Source of the DNA: Stenomitos frigidus ULC18
Lineage (GTDB): Bacteria; Cyanobacteriota; Cyanobacteriia; Leptolyngbyales; Leptolyngbyaceae
Direction of reading: 5' to 3'
DNA length: 64,000 bases
Assembly (NCBI RefSeq): GCF_003003795.1
Contig: NZ_PVWK01000121.1
Span: 1 to 64,000, forward strand
Shown piece after piece: positions 4,615 through 54,582 of this stretch (position 1 is its first letter; each line of letters opens with the position of its first letter). The position numbers and the translations under genes are program-made. A model generated the notes under the pieces. That model ran no database searches. It worked only from the letters and a program-made list of their open reading frames with translations, and was not told the origin of the DNA.

Positions 4615-5580
4615 ATGACTGACACAGCACAGCACAAAGGGTACGAGAGAGAAATCGCAATCCAGCCTGATTCTCATCCTGGCTACGTTCAAGTGCAACG
4701 CCAACTTCGCGCTTTAATTGATCGCCATCTTTCAAACGAACATCTTCACGATCGCCTGCAAGATTTACCCATTCAATTTGCTAATCCACAGCCACGTCCC
4801 TGGCAACCGATCGATTGGCACGCGATCGAGCGCCACCAAATTGTAGACATTGATCCCAATGTCTTTTTAGCGATTCTTGTAGGAGCGATCGATACTGAAG
4901 CCCCCATTCGGCAATACACACAGACCAGTCGGCAATATCTAGAAGAGCTGCATCCCCAGCTTGCCCGCTTTGTCGGAGGCACGATCGCGTCAAACGGTAC
5001 ATTGCTGGAACCAGGCTTGTGGGAAAAAGAAGAGCGCCAGCATACGCCATCTCTGCTCAAAATCTATGCTCAACTAACAGGCGAAAAAGTTACGCCAACG
5101 CCCCGCGAAGCACGATCGTACCAGCCATCTGATAGCCCTCGTCTGGATCTCTATCGGCACGGTCTGCATCGCATTGCCACCGAATATGGTGCGACTTGCC
5201 TCTACCTCTGGTTAATGGCACACACGACTGGAGCTTTACGCACCGTCCTGGAAGAATTGACGCAGGACGAAATCAACCACATGACCAAATTCTGGGGTTT
5301 TGGCATCTGGGCCTATCCTGAAGCATCGCCACTTTGGGTTTGCCGCACTTTGTTGCAAACGACAAACGGTCGCCCAACCTATAGCCGCGATCGCAGCAGT
5401 CTTGTTGGAACCTTACATCGCATGACAGGAGTCCTCCACTGGCCAGACTGGACTTGGACGAACCGCGCAACCTTTGCATACACATGCACCTGCATCTTGC
5501 AACGCTTGTGGGGTTGGAGCAATAGCCTGACTCCGGAGTATTTGGCAGGGTTGTTTGAAGAGAAAACGGACGGGGAATAG
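4615..5580 (+). CDS. Ferritin-like domain protein
   Basis: The predicted 321-residue protein resembles cyanobacterial ferritin-like helical proteins. Candidate metal ligands occur in EKEERQH and in LEELTQDEINH, two E/H-rich helices spaced as in diiron carboxylate proteins. The substrate is unknown. The frame stays open up to a GTG at 4510, but that start would overlap the promoter of the divergent gene. The ATG at 4615 (MTDTAQHKGYERE) begins the conserved-looking part, so I prefer it. A GAGTTTT tandem repeat starts right at the stop codon. Function remains an inference from the fold. Confidence 0.7.
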   Translation: MTDTAQHKGYEREIAIQPDSHPGYVQVQRQLRALIDRHLSNEHLHDRLQDLPIQFANPQPRPWQPIDWHAIERHQIVDIDPNVFLAILVGAIDTEAPIRQYTQTSRQYLEELHPQLARFVGGTIASNGTLLEPGLWEKEERQHTPSLLKIYAQLTGEKVTPTPREARSYQPSDSPRLDLYRHGLHRIATEYGATCLYLWLMAHTTGALRTVLEELTQDEINHMTKFWGFGIWAYPEASPLWVCRTLLQTTNGRPTYSRDRSSLVGTLHRMTGVLHWPDWTWTNRATFAYTCTCILQRLWGWSNSLTPEYLAGLFEEKTDGE

Positions 5581-5605
5581 AGTTTTGAGTTTTGAGTTTT
5601 GAGTT
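5580..5605. repeat. GAGTTTT heptamer tandem repeat
   Basis: About 3.7 tandem copies of GAGTTTT lie immediately after the ferritin-like gene. The same heptamer appears at 24881-24900 and inside radA at about 16206-16222. It fits the short tandemly repeated repetitive sequences typical of filamentous cyanobacteria. Confidence 0.85.
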
Positions 5606-5630
5606 AACCAGAACCGATACATCTACAGTT

Positions 5631-15184: not shown

Positions 15185-16798
15185 TTAATCCGTTTCATCA
15201 TCAGTTTGATCTGTGGACTCATTAGTAGCCTTCTTGCCTGCCAGGGCGATCGCAATCGCATCCACGACTCTGGCAACGGGAAAAACCTCAATGCCAAGAT
15301 CCGGTAGCACCTGACCTTTGGGGACGATCGCCTGCTTGAAGCCCAATTTCGCCGCTTCCTTTAGCCGTAGCTCCATTTGCGAAACCGGACGTACTTGTCC
15401 ACCCAAACCCACTTCGCCAATTAGCACCATCCGTGGATCAACCACCCGATCGCGGAAGCTCGCTACCACCGCGATCGCCACGCCCAAATCAGCGGCAGGT
15501 TCTCCCACACTCAAGCCACCGGACGATGCAACATAGGCATCCAGTTTAGAAAGGGGAATCCCCACGCGCTTTTCTAACACTGCCAGAATTTGCAGGAGTC
15601 GATTATATTCAATTCCAGTCGTCGATCGTCGAGGTGAACTGTAGCTGGTCGGACTCACCAGCGCTTGCAACTCAACGACAATCGGGCGTGTCCCTTCGCA
15701 AGCAACGATCGTTGCGCTACCCGACGAGAACTCATCCCGATTGCCTAAAAAGAGTTCCGATGGATTGAGTACTTCCTGCAAGCCCTGATCCACCATCTCA
15801 AACACACCAATTTCGTGAGTTGCCCCAAAGCGATTTTTCACCGATCGCAGCAATCGATGGCTGGCGAAGCGATCGCCCTCAAAGTACAGCACCGTATCCA
15901 CCAGATGTTCCAGCACCTTGGGTCCCGCGATCGCCCCTTCCTTCGTCACATGCCCTACAATAAAGAGCGTAATATTCTGCCGCTTCGCCATCTGCATCAG
16001 CACCGACGTACATTCCCGCACCTGCGCCACTGACCCCGGAGCCGACGACAACGCACTGAAGTACAGCGCCTGAATACTGTCAATCACTGCTACATGAGGC
16101 TTCAGCGACTCCAACTCGGCGAGGATAGTGTCGAGGTCGGTTTCGGGCAAAAGGTAGAGTTGGGAAGATGGGGTGTCGGGTATCGGGTGTCGGGTGTCGG
16201 GAAGCGTTTTGAGTTTTGAGTTCCGAGCCGCGTCTGATTCCTGACCGCTGACCGCTGCTAACTCCTCTCCCCTGCTTCTCTGCCCCCGCTGCTCCCTTTG
16301 CTCTCCCCTCTCCCCTCTCCCCTCTCCTCCCCTCTCCTCCCCCACCCCCAACCGCTGCGCCCTCAACTTCACTTGCTGGGCAGACTCTTCGGCACAAACG
16401 TAGAGAGTGCGATAGGTTTGAGAGAGTCGATTGGCGGTTTGTAGCAGCAGGGTGGATTTGCCAATGCCTGGATCGCCACCAATCAGCACCAGGGAACCGG
16501 GGACGATGCCGCCACCGAGGACACGATCGAGTTCGCTATAGCCTGAAGACAAACGGGCTTGGGGATGATCGGAGATTTGCGCCAGCGTCAGGGCCGCTTT
16601 GGGTTGAGCAGGTGTTTGGCAAGTGCTACTAGAGCGCCCACCGAGGCGAGCAGCACCGGGACGGGCGGCTGTGTTTGTGACGGGTGCAACCTGTTCTTCG
16701 AGTGAGTTCCAGCTATTGCAGGCGGGGCATTTTCCAAAGTATTGAGAAGACTCTGCACCACATTGGTTACAAACGTAGTGCGATCGCAATTTGGGCAT
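15185..16798 (-). CDS. radA: DNA repair protein RadA with a repeat-derived insertion
   Basis: RadA (Sms) is an ATP-driven branch-migration factor in recombination. The 537-residue product has an N-terminal C4 zinc finger (CNQCGAESSQYFGKCPAC), Walker A GGDPGIGKST, the RadA motif KNRFG and a C-terminal Lon-like domain. The family is usually about 450-460 residues. The excess is an insert of about 60 residues (about 150-212) made of Arg/Gly/Glu repeats and other low-complexity sequence, placed just after RAQRLGV in the ATPase domain. Its DNA consists of intergenic-type tandem repeats. The frame is kept, so the protein may still fold. It is divergent from rpaB. Confidence 0.95.
   Translation of the reverse strand: MPKLRSHYVCNQCGAESSQYFGKCPACNSWNSLEEQVAPVTNTAARPGAARLGGRSSSTCQTPAQPKAALTLAQISDHPQARLSSGYSELDRVLGGGIVPGSLVLIGGDPGIGKSTLLLQTANRLSQTYRTLYVCAEESAQQVKLRAQRLGVGEERGGEGRGERGEQREQRGQRSRGEELAAVSGQESDAARNSKLKTLPDTRHPIPDTPSSQLYLLPETDLDTILAELESLKPHVAVIDSIQALYFSALSSAPGSVAQVRECTSVLMQMAKRQNITLFIVGHVTKEGAIAGPKVLEHLVDTVLYFEGDRFASHRLLRSVKNRFGATHEIGVFEMVDQGLQEVLNPSELFLGNRDEFSSGSATIVACEGTRPIVVELQALVSPTSYSSPRRSTTGIEYNRLLQILAVLEKRVGIPLSKLDAYVASSGGLSVGEPAADLGVAIAVVASFRDRVVDPRMVLIGEVGLGGQVRPVSQMELRLKEAAKLGFKQAIVPKGQVLPDLGIEVFPVARVVDAIAIALAGKKATNESTDQTDDETD
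16160..16350. repeat. Compound low-complexity repeats inside radA
   Basis: On the plus strand this segment holds TCGGGTG-type repeats (about 16171-16200), GAGTTTT repeats (about 16206-16222), a GACCGCTGACCGCTG stretch, and CTCCCCTCTCC repeats (to about 16345). These are the same kinds of sequence seen between genes in this window. Confidence 0.85.
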
Positions 16799-24865: not shown

Positions 24866-24880
24866 GAGAGGGGAAGGAGT

Positions 24881-24900
24881 GAGTTTTGAGTTTTGAGTTG
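24881..24900. repeat. GAGTTTT tandem repeat
   Basis: About 2.7 copies of GAGTTTT lie between the convergent TPR and kinase genes, the same unit as at 5580-5605. Confidence 0.8.
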
Positions 24901-34867: not shown

Positions 34868-36619
34868 TCACTCTCGATAAAGTCGTACAATCCAATCGAC
34901 CACTTCAACAATACTGAGATTGTCAGTTTGAATTTCGATCGCATCCTCAGCCTGACGTAAGGGAGCAAGCGCACGAGTGCTGTCTTTGAGATCGCGATCA
35001 TAAATTGACTGTTCTAGCTCATCCAGGCTGATTTCGTCCTTGCCCTGGTTCTTTAGATCTTGCTGCCGACGACGTGCCCGTTCCTGTACAGAAGCGGTCA
35101 AGAAAAGCTTGAGTTCCGCATCAGGAAAAACATACGTGCCAATGTCTCGACCATCGATGACGATGCCGCCATTTTTCCCATACCGTCGTTGCTGGCGCAC
35201 CAGTTCCTTGCGGACGATCGGTTGAGCCGCGATCGCAGACACATTGGATGTCACTTCCAGGCTCCGAATTTCCTGCGTCACGTCTTGACCATTGATAGAG
35301 ACACTGATAGATGTAGCTTGTTTTTCCATGAGAGTTGGCTGACCGCTAAGCTCAATCTCACACTGACTCACCAGTTCCGCAATGCTGGGTTCATCGTCAA
35401 CGGCAAGACCAGACTGCAGCACGAGCCAGGTCAACGCACGATACATCGCACCTGTGTCTAGATACAGTAAATCGAGCACCTGCGCCACTTGGCGAGCAAC
35501 CGTCGATTTTCCAGCCCCAGCAGGGCCGTCAATCGCCACAATAGGCTTACGGCTGGACAAAAGGATGTTGTCAATCAGGCGAGTCGAACCGATGCGACCC
35601 GCGATCGCCAGTAAGCCAGTTTCCTCAATCATTTCCAAAGGCTCCAACGTGGATGGATGAACTAATTCAATATATTCTGGGTCGATCGTCGACACGCTTT
35701 GCAGTTCCGTTTTAACCATATTAATCAACACATCAGCCGATCGTTCGCCTGCTCGAAACACCTGCGCAGCCTGACTCAAACCCCGATAAAGCACAATCGC
35801 CTGCGCGCGCTGCTCTGGGGTTAAATACTGATTCCGCGAACTATAAGCCAGACCGCTCGGCTCGCGCACAATGGGACAGCCCACGATCGCCACGGGTAAA
35901 TTTAAGTCCTCAACCAATCGCTGAATAATCGCCAACTGCTGGGCGTCTTTCTGCCCAAAATACGCTCGCTGCGGTTGTACAATGCTGAGCAGCTTCGTCA
36001 CGATCGTCGCCACACCTTGAAAGTGCCCGCTTCGCGATCGACCACACAATACAGATGTCATTGGTTCGGGCGGAATCACTTGCGTGGGCGAGGATTGAGC
36101 GCTAGGGGATTTTGTATCAGCTTGGGTATTCCAGAAACGTGAAGCGTCTCCAAAGGAAATAGTTTGAGCTTCAAGTTCTAACATCTGACTTCCGTCTTCT
36201 GTCTTCTGGCTCCCACCTTCTGCCTTCTGGCTGCTAACTGCTGACGGCTGACGGCTGGCAGCTGATTGCTGTCTCCCCACTCCCATCTCTTCCACACTAG
36301 GCGCAAAGATCACATCCACTCCCGCCTGCTCACACAATGCCTGATCCTGCTCTAACATGCGAGGATACTGCTGAAAATCTTCGGTTGGGCCGAATTGCAG
36401 AGGGTTAACAAAAATACTCACCACAACCAGCTTATTCTCTTGTCGTGCTTTTTGGATCAGGCTCAAATGTCCTGCATGGAGCGATCCCATTGTCGGAACC
36501 AAGCCGATCGAGACCTCAGGCAATGATTCACCTGTCATGAAGCGATCAAAGAGAGGTTGACCGGAACGATAGCGATTGAGATAACAACGTAAGCCGGCAA
36601 CGGTTTTGAACAAACGCAC
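34868..36619 (-). CDS. panC-cmk: Bifunctional pantothenate synthetase/cytidylate kinase
   Basis: The N-terminal half is pantoate-beta-alanine ligase (VPTMGSLHAGHLSLI, and GQKDAQQLAIIQRL). The C-terminal half is CMP kinase with the P-loop GPAGAGKST (about 365) and DGRDIGTYVFPDAELK. This fusion is typical of cyanobacteria. Between VDVIFAPSVEEM and VIPPEPMTSVL lies an extra stretch of about 70 residues (about 110-185), rich in Gln/Ser, derived from tandem repeats. The frame is kept. I chose GTG at 36619 (MRLFKTVAGLRCYL) with GGGGG before it; a TTG at 36631 is also in frame. Confidence 0.93.
   Translation of the reverse strand: MRLFKTVAGLRCYLNRYRSGQPLFDRFMTGESLPEVSIGLVPTMGSLHAGHLSLIQKARQENKLVVVSIFVNPLQFGPTEDFQQYPRMLEQDQALCEQAGVDVIFAPSVEEMGVGRQQSAASRQPSAVSSQKAEGGSQKTEDGSQMLELEAQTISFGDASRFWNTQADTKSPSAQSSPTQVIPPEPMTSVLCGRSRSGHFQGVATIVTKLLSIVQPQRAYFGQKDAQQLAIIQRLVEDLNLPVAIVGCPIVREPSGLAYSSRNQYLTPEQRAQAIVLYRGLSQAAQVFRAGERSADVLINMVKTELQSVSTIDPEYIELVHPSTLEPLEMIEETGLLAIAGRIGSTRLIDNILLSSRKPIVAIDGPAGAGKSTVARQVAQVLDLLYLDTGAMYRALTWLVLQSGLAVDDEPSIAELVSQCEIELSGQPTLMEKQATSISVSINGQDVTQEIRSLEVTSNVSAIAAQPIVRKELVRQQRRYGKNGGIVIDGRDIGTYVFPDAELKLFLTASVQERARRRQQDLKNQGKDEISLDELEQSIYDRDLKDSTRALAPLRQAEDAIEIQTDNLSIVEVVDWIVRLYRE
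36080..36300. repeat. Repeat-derived insert inside panC-cmk
   Basis: The plus strand has CTTCTGTCTTCTGGCTCCCACCTTCTGCC-like repeats (about 36190-36230), then CTGACGGCTGACGGCTGGCAGCTGA (about 36240-36265). Both resemble the intergenic tandem repeats at 54527 and 23690. Confidence 0.8.
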
Positions 36620-36804
36620 CGCAACCCCCAAAATGACTGATATTTTGTTGAGAAGGCAAAGGCCTCACACCCCAAACCTAAATTTCACCTGTTAAGCGTA
36701 TCAACAAGACTGCTATTGCTGCTACTCAAAACGAGTTTCAGTACGCCTGTCCATTTTGGCGAAGCGCGTTAGGATGTCGTCTGTAGGCTCTTCTTCAGAT
36801 AGCT

Positions 36805-54256: not shown

Positions 54257-54526
54257 AACGTGTGGTAGTCAGTAGTAAGGAGTCGGTGGTTAGTAGTCAG
54301 TGGTTAGAGGGTTAAGAGCTGGTAGCAAAGACAGTATCTTCAGCTTGATGTAAGGACACATCTAAGCCTAAGGGCTTTGTTTGTAGCCTTTTGCACTCCT
54401 TCTAAAATCACTGGCTACAGGTTCGCCTGTGAAGCCAACAGCCTTAACTCCTGGATTCTGACTCCTAAATTCTGCTGCAATTAATAGCTAACTAAGGGGT
54501 GTAAAGCAATAACGTCATGGACTGTA

Positions 54527-54582
54527 GCGGTCAGCCATCAGCGGTCAGCCATCAGCGATCAGCCATCAGCGGTCAGCCGTTA
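54527..54582. repeat. 14-bp tandem repeat, four units
   Basis: Four copies of GCGGTCAGCCATCA run head to tail: two exact, one with a single change (GCGATCAGCCATCA) and one diverged at the end (GCGGTCAGCCGTTA). Related CAGCGATCAGC sequences occur at about 23690-23710. Confidence 0.92.

Follow-up and report, generated by a model that had tools for sequence, protein, structure and literature searches.

The genome of Stenomitos frigidus ULC18 (G000; 6.98 Mb, 167 contigs) carries a radA gene with tandem heptad repeats inside its coding sequence, and the question is how such DNA came to lie in a core recombination gene and what keeps that gene open. The window referred to below is the whole stretch of DNA that was analysed, 64,000 nucleotides of one contig. 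An earlier note on this DNA had reported about 60 extra residues after the motif RAQRLGV. The exact figure is 60 residues, starting directly after that motif, and the reading frame is unbroken in the ORF translation. The gene, the insert and the repeat modules in gene order are as follows.

15185 to 16798, minus strand: intact radA (sms), 537 aa (TIGR00416 profile match, ORF list, conserved residues).
16163 to 16342, minus strand: in-frame repeat insert, 180 nt, RadA residues 153-212, 60 aa (alignments, including that to 5lkm).
16301 to 16343, minus strand: module 1, G-rich GAGAGGG heptads (CTCTCCC on the plus strand), 6 copies, 81% (TRF).
16241 to 16259, minus strand: module 2, GTCAGCG heptads (CTGACCG on the plus strand), about 2.5 copies (read from the sequence).
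16206 to 16223, minus strand: module 3, AAAACTC heptads (GAGTTTT on the plus strand), about 2.5 copies (read from the sequence; motif search with 1 mismatch).
16171 to 16201, minus strand: last module, C-rich GACACCC heptads (GGGTGTC on the plus strand), 4.4 copies, 91% (TRF).

In a profile search, RadA residues 1-515 match TIGR00416 with 665 bits (cut-off 403). A structure search with the second AlphaFold2 model returned 5lkm, 8rxc and Lon domains, as expected of a RadA with its Lon-like C-terminal domain, the best matches being RadA structures. Residues C10, C13, C24, C27, G108, P110-T116 and K321-G325 are invariant in an alignment of 28 RadA sequences, and we take these to be the Cys4 zinc motif, Walker A and KNRFG. 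The proposal that short repeats can enter a core recombination gene without breaking it is thus borne out, as the repeats are in frame in a normal-scoring RadA. Judging from the sequence, a full-length and active protein is probably made. Inteins have a nucleophile at their first residue and at the residue that follows the insert. These hallmarks are absent here: the first residue is Gly, the next residue after the insert is Gln, and no separate domain match was found inside.

The alignment to the solved structure 5lkm ends at residue 151 and restarts at 212, with 3 residues between these points in the solved chain. The insert replaces a 3-residue turn. The AlphaFold2 model places it between helix 140-149 and strand 214-217, with pLDDT values below 50 for residues 167-208, compared with 94 and 93 for the blocks 141-150 and 211-220, and it is predicted to be disordered. 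Modelling with 28 cyanobacterial RadAs alone gave a pLDDT of 54; 64 more diverse sequences gave 84.5, and this second model was used.

The insert DNA had been described as made of repeat types that occur between genes elsewhere in the window. This is correct for GAGTTTT (matches at 5580 and 24881), which forms two intergenic arrays.

5578 to 5606, unstranded: intergenic GAGTTTT array (TRF, gene positions).
24879 to 24900, unstranded: intergenic GAGTTTT array (TRF, gene positions).

It is not correct for TCGGGTG and CTCCCC, which in the window are found only in coding inserts; the CTCCCC type is limited to the radA insert and one weak match at 36273 inside panC-cmk. Allowing up to 1 mismatch, TCGGGTGTCGGG occurs 4 times in the window, always within the radA insert (0.20 expected). 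Allowing up to 2, CTCCCCTCTCCCCT occurs 5 times, 4 of them within the insert (0.30 expected), and none of 100 shuffles matched the count of either. The 12-mer multiplicity of the insert exceeds that of 1989 of 2000 coding tiles, and 17 of 424 intergenic tiles are equally high, a result that is supportive, not decisive. Arrays of the GTCAGCG type are also present in the inserts of PurH, CimA and others. Two arrays with a 14-nt period, GTAGTCAGTGGTTA and AGCGGTCAGCCATC, lie at 54265-54307 and 54526-54578 of the window, the second of which also scored as a 7-nt array.

Beyond the window, we counted 95 lag-7 arrays in 864 kb, versus 0, 0, 7, 1, 7, 0, 1 and 4 at lags 4, 5, 6, 8, 9, 10, 11 and 12. 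This sample (the window plus 40 stretches of 20 kb, 12% of the genome) was not chosen blind, as the contigs were known beforehand from repeat-match lists; the first 20 stretches were set at fixed 60-kb steps and the second 20 were placed by hand. At a stricter threshold, no arrays occur in three first-order Markov simulations, versus 24 in the real sequence (first sample, 464 kb). Of these arrays, 70 are intergenic, 7 lie at gene edges and the other 18 are internal to 10 of the 694 genes called, giving densities of 0.38 per kb between genes versus 0.027 per kb inside; genes were called with a simple script based on codon hexamers rather than with a published gene finder. Two of these 10 genes are supplied by the hand-placed stretch C73:220001-240000 (L192), which was known to hold matches. 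Without this stretch and the window, the remaining 780 kb hold 62 arrays between genes, 10 inside genes and 7 at edges, with 6 genes affected, all from the first 20 stretches. Extrapolation to the whole genome suggests about 50 genes with internal arrays. Tandem units of 7 nt, dispersal and enrichment between genes are the features that define STRRs, and all are present here.

The arrays combine into composites, usually ordered on one strand as G-rich heptads, AAAACTC heptads and C-rich heptads. In the decided cases among 37 intergenic AAAACTC composites, C tracts prevail on the downstream side in 35 versus 1 and G tracts on the upstream side in 21 versus 9. No orientation preference was detected for intergenic composites relative to neighbouring genes (19 of 37 for either neighbour), and the first impression that composites adjoin the start codons of co-oriented genes was dropped after this result. 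Several composites contain a hairpin-forming segment of about 24 nt between AAAACTC units (AAAACTC..TCTAGCGTAGCGGCGCAAAGCGCTACTC), for which no copy number is given, since a regular expression found 2 of the copies visible by eye. Such a hairpin was not seen in the radA insert of this genome, though visible by eye in several other composites.

As 7 and 3 are coprime, three or more heptad units make up one 21-nt cycle that translates into the same seven residues whichever frame is read. Stop-freedom is thus set by strand alone: AAAACTC is open and GAGTTTT closed, and AAAGGCT is closed on both strands. None of the 15 arrays whose units are closed on both strands lies inside a gene, versus 18 of the 80 others, so a coding filter by strand is suggestive only (Fisher two-sided p = 0.066). 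The closed heptad AAGGCTA is present in the untranslated RNase P RNA of genome G004. Matches to rnpB are 471-496 nt long in the genus (that of G004 starts at a contig end) versus 379-436 nt in the other eight genomes, and period 7 is strongest in G007 of the family and in G000, G003, G005 and G006 of the genus; this evidence is from the sequences themselves, not their alignment. The rnpB heptads (L329, L332-L337) lie in a variable region, and some are complementary, e.g., AAGGCTA and TAGCCTT in G004.

RadA is not the only core enzyme with a repeat-filled loop. A second case in the window is PanC-CMK.

34871 to 36631, minus strand: bifunctional panC-cmk, 587 aa (NF010004, 772 bits, cut-off 524).
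36062 to 36283, minus strand: variable loop of PanC-CMK with heptads, in frame, 222 nt (loop comparison).

CimA and ThiO in the L192 stretch have internal arrays, as do PheT, PurH, a SNF2 helicase, an nSTAND1 protein, a weak geranylgeranyl-reductase-family match and a protein with DinB and FGE-sulfatase domains (presumably EgtB-like) in other stretches. Repeat-directed searches identified arrays in Mfd, a hydantoinase/oxoprolinase, a KAS III plus haem-oxygenase-like protein, a TPR protein, MutS and an SbcC-like protein. Two of these, SbcC and Mfd, are truncated at the locus ends and score below NCBIfam cut-offs. We do not claim enrichment of DNA repair genes (radA, mfd, mutS, sbcC), because mfd, mutS and sbcC came from the repeat-directed searches. 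In mfd (L129), the hairpin within the AAAACTC array apparently contains a further palindrome, a nested insertion that keeps the frame, and a similar nested palindrome lies between the KAS III-like and haem-oxygenase-like domains of L135.

Loops were measured in 20 genomes each for PheT, PanC-CMK and Mfd, in 12 each for CimA and ThiO and in 14 for MutS. Outside the genus, loops without period 7 are short, mostly 8 residues in PheT (9 of 13), 15-21 residues in PanC-CMK (45-63 nt in 12 genomes) and 5-16 in MutS. Most genus members have heptad composites in the same loops, and these differ from one another. Occupation is not universal, as G003 is below threshold in PheT, PanC, CimA and MutS, and G002 has no period 7 in ThiO; the ThiO loop of G004 reaches z 3.7 in one scoring and is below 3.5 in the seven-gene count described next. 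Outside the genus, period 7 at these sites is found in G010 (PheT, PanC, Mfd) and G037 (CimA, MutS).

With RadA included, the loops of seven genes (RadA, PheT, PanC-CMK, Mfd, CimA, ThiO, MutS) are in frame in 139 of 139 cases, these being non-independent through shared ancestry, though their contents differ. If length were free, about one third of loops would be in frame. All 53 loops with a lag-7 z of at least 3.5 are in frame and stop-free. For this count RadA loops shorter than 40 nt and loci without a G label were dropped (41 RadA loops kept), 2 of 14 CimA and 2 of 14 ThiO loci lacked a usable anchor, the RadA loop of G010 was taken from its open frame, and z-scores were obtained from random shuffles. 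Coding loops with repeats show the G-then-C order seen between genes (50 and 52 of 53), and loops without period 7 lean the same way (37 and 46 of 60), so polarity inside coding loops is not diagnostic alone.

We consider it highly probable that STRR-type composites recurrently colonise permissive, disordered loops and that selection keeps the alleles of the right length and strand. The RadA stretch would then be a 7-nt STRR composite in an old permissive loop that links a helix of the RecA-like ATPase core to the strand after it. Composites scattered through the genome would grow, shrink and recombine with one another, and would spread to other sites by copying, in some cases at least as whole units. 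An open-strand composite could enter a loop in any phase, since a heptad array reads the same in all frames and its stop-freedom depends on strand alone, and selection would only have to hold the overall length divisible by three. In RadA and no fewer than six further housekeeping enzymes, the loop is occupied in most of the genus and its contents turn over.

Evidence for copying comes from two adjacent, unrelated genes and from a third gene on another contig.

L192, 5553 to 7364, minus strand: cimA (citramalate synthase), with composite in frame.
L192, 8389 to 9585, plus strand: thiO, with composite in frame.

These two genes have 134 bp in common at 90% identity, including a non-repeat spacer; the shared composite is on opposite genomic strands and in the same coding sense. 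A third copy is in frame in the sbcC-like gene (L273; 81% over 135 bp), and mutS has a more distant copy (71%), in a search that scored 40 of 487 candidates. The identity of 81-90% over about 134 bp in cimA, thiO and sbcC indicates that the composite can be copied as a unit. For 25 of the 42 genus loops, the best match belongs to another gene's loop, in the same genome for 9 and in another genome for 16. The other 17, two ties included, match their own orthologue best, so part of the loop content is inherited. The sharing among cimA, thiO and sbcC and the 25 cross-gene matches favour copying or recombination over independent growth, and from them we infer a copying mechanism. For radA, 40 of 431 candidates were scored, and none was a full-length sibling of the composite; within the same 40, parts of it (23-94 bases) occur in at least 32 other places in the genome. 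By sequence comparison the radA composite is assembled from modules seen elsewhere. The suggestion in the earlier note of mobile-like spread is thus supported by the composite common to three unrelated genes, but not by radA itself.

The lack of a full-length copy among these 40 is one reason to weigh expansion in place, by which a native, low-complexity RadA loop with one G-rich and one C-rich end would have grown into heptads by polymerase slippage, without incoming DNA. The native edge codons (RLGVGEE, PSNLYLL) are G-rich and C-rich, and loops without period 7 share the G-then-C lean. We regard expansion in place as unlikely, if still worth considering. The loop units belong to the same heptad families as those between genes, AAAACTC and GTCAGCG would be unlikely products of the native RadA edges, the non-repeat spacer travels with the composite in three unrelated genes, and more than half of the genus loops (the 25 of 42) best match the loop of another gene.

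A bolder form of the colonisation reading, which we hold to be doubtful, is that the composite (G-rich heptads, AAAACTC heptads often with a hairpin between them, C-rich heptads) is a minute mobile element, free of stops on one strand whatever the frame, that has its homes in loops and spacers and keeps supplying core enzymes with disordered loops, and that slippage in genes such as mutS acts as a reversible mutator switch. In the mutS gene of this genome (L309, G000 C92:49605-51995), a run of 8.7 perfect AAAACTC units stands in frame a short way ahead of Walker A, which makes it a candidate for frame-switching mismatch repair. This array, and the fact that 7 is not a multiple of 3, would also fit phase variation, in which the arrays are contingency switches and one unit gained or lost shifts the frame. 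This explanation is improbable. The longest perfect run in radA is no more than 3.9 copies; some off alleles might be expected at switching loci, yet every one of the 139 loops is in the on frame; and the median coding array in the sample, at 3.4 copies, barely exceeds the intergenic one (3.1). We rejected radA as a phase-variable contingency locus on its 3.9 perfect copies and the 0 off-frame loops among 139, in a sample with one genome per species.

The cyanobacterial RadA loop is 12-243 nt long (4-81 residues) in 69 of 71 loci measured, and is thus old and variable. From a set of 58 genomes, RadA was taken from all but G014, G035, G038, G041, G044, G047, G048 and G049, and one genome is present twice among the 69 loci (L006, L031). 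The two loci outside the 69 are those of G004 (L017) and G023 (L025), each with a contig end; the G004 gene, read separately, is in frame through a 150-nt loop (z 10.7). Loop length is a multiple of 3 in 68 of the 69, the exception being L179 (G010), which reads in frame through the repeat loop and changes frame beyond it, near query residue 264, through either an assembly error or a real lesion. The radA match in G014 falls in two overlapping pieces. Flagged stops in RadA of G002, G017, G037 and G046 and in CimA of G004 and G008 are natural frame ends. RadA from a record titled Bifidobacterium breve (a MAG; L049) is 56% identical to this cyanobacterial RadA and ranks among Synechococcus records; the record is probably mislabelled.

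Strong period 7 (z 6.9-14) is present in the RadA loops of G000, G001, G003, G004, G005 and G006 in this genus of Leptolyngbyaceae and of G010, G019, G030 and G032 in the family; the signal is decayed in G002 (z 3.8) and moderate in G027 and G034. All six same-genus relatives carry a repeat-bearing loop at the same site (five strong, G002 decayed). The repeat site is therefore old, which contradicts a recent single insertion into radA. The repeat content of the RadA loop correlates with the genome load of one heptad (rho 0.50, 36 genomes), with a rho of 0.26 outside the genus (p = 0.16, 30 genomes); G050 and G021 have many AAAACTC arrays in the genome and no lag-7 signal in the RadA loop.

According to the earlier note, close relatives with the same insert and residue-level selection would make it an old domain rather than a recent repeat. 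The site is indeed common to relatives, but the residues and repeat types differ. Heptads in the RadA loop are GGGAGTC and CACCCCA in G001, GGCAGGA in G005, and GGGAGTC and CCCCATT in G006 (L005), together with an 8-nt tandem repeat, GGGGACAA, in about 4-5 copies. The radA flanks are under strong purifying selection (dN/dS 0.014-0.032 in 21 pairs of seven RadAs). Over aligned columns of these seven proteins, identity is 92-99% in the flanks versus 26-71% in the loop. These values indicate that the gene is not a pseudogene and that the loop is not a conserved domain. An old, lineage-specific functional domain of RadA kept by residue selection is thus largely refuted and very improbable: all six relatives in the genus do have a long loop, and loop length varies among the cyanobacteria examined, but loop identity is far below that of the flanks, the heptad types differ per species without residue-level conservation, and the same repeat peptides are found in unrelated enzymes.

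An assembly or contamination artefact can be dismissed: repeats may trouble assemblers, since two drafts have contig ends at or near the loop (contig C224 of G004 starts 9 residues ahead of the loop, and radA of G023 is divided over two contigs, the start of C288 and C299, with the break between residues 156 and 199), but RadA loops with z of at least 3.5, all in frame, are found in 12 genomes of six genera, including the single-contig genomes G019, G027 and G030.

Elements of this system are familiar. STRRs and small dispersed repeats (SDRs) in cyanobacteria, with hairpins embedded in the heptad arrays of Nostoc, were reportedly described by Elhai and colleagues in 2008. Cyanobacterial SDRs are hairpins of 21-27 nt placed within heptad arrays. 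The repeats analysed here resemble these in their tandem 7-nt units, dispersal, mostly intergenic location and, in several composites read by eye, embedded short hairpins, and differ in lying in frame in conserved core-enzyme loops across a genus, in their polarity and in copying between genes. For the RNase P RNA of cyanobacteria, STRRs are said to have been described by Vioque in 1997. In this genus too a needed RNA gene has repeats, and its RNA also carries the translation-closed heptad AAGGCTA.

G-rich heptamer repeats of Nostoc 7120 form 89 arrays, of which 68% are intergenic and the others, by implication, lie within genes (Rehm et al., 2015; PMC4692102). The accessible text of that report concerns one heptad type and treats neither frame at orthologous loops nor copying between genes. 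Heptanucleotide TAACTGA repeats occur in cyanobacteria and others, according to the available part of another source (PMC4679880). Rickettsia palindromic elements (RPEs) are dispersed and in frame in unrelated, presumably functional genes (Ogata, 2000; PMC10969869, PMC3733652). As far as the text of these sources extends, RPEs are palindromic and about 150 bp long, unlike the direct-heptad mosaics seen here, which turn over at fixed sites. Intragenic REPs occur in many core genes, repair genes included, and in recB at about the same site in two Xanthomonas (PMC3733652). In the portion of that source available, REPs are palindromes of 20-40 bp discussed with tyrosine transposases, and heptads are not mentioned. 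We read the radA insert by eye and found direct heptads and no apparent dominant palindrome. Filing it as an RPE or REP was rejected on the absence of a palindromic unit, although it works like an RPE.

Heptad STRRs, embedded small repeats, intragenic heptads, rnpB STRRs, RPEs and REPs are thus already known. Among the open-licence papers listed by our searches we found no earlier report of heptad composites in RadA or other cyanobacterial core proteins. New, as a combination not found in the literature searched, are in-frame composites in fixed core-enzyme loops across a genus, their turnover, a proposed coding filter that acts on strand only, and copying as units between genes.

Annotators who meet peptides such as KTQNSKL, GSRESGV or HPTPHTP in cyanobacterial proteins are probably looking at repeat DNA rather than at domains. 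The loops provide a testable system for the coexistence of selfish repeats and proteins, in which one can ask what loops are tolerant, by what means the frame is policed and in what way composites are copied. In these bacteria, non-coding repeats act as a continuing supply of protein sequence for housekeeping genes, at sites traceable from species to species.
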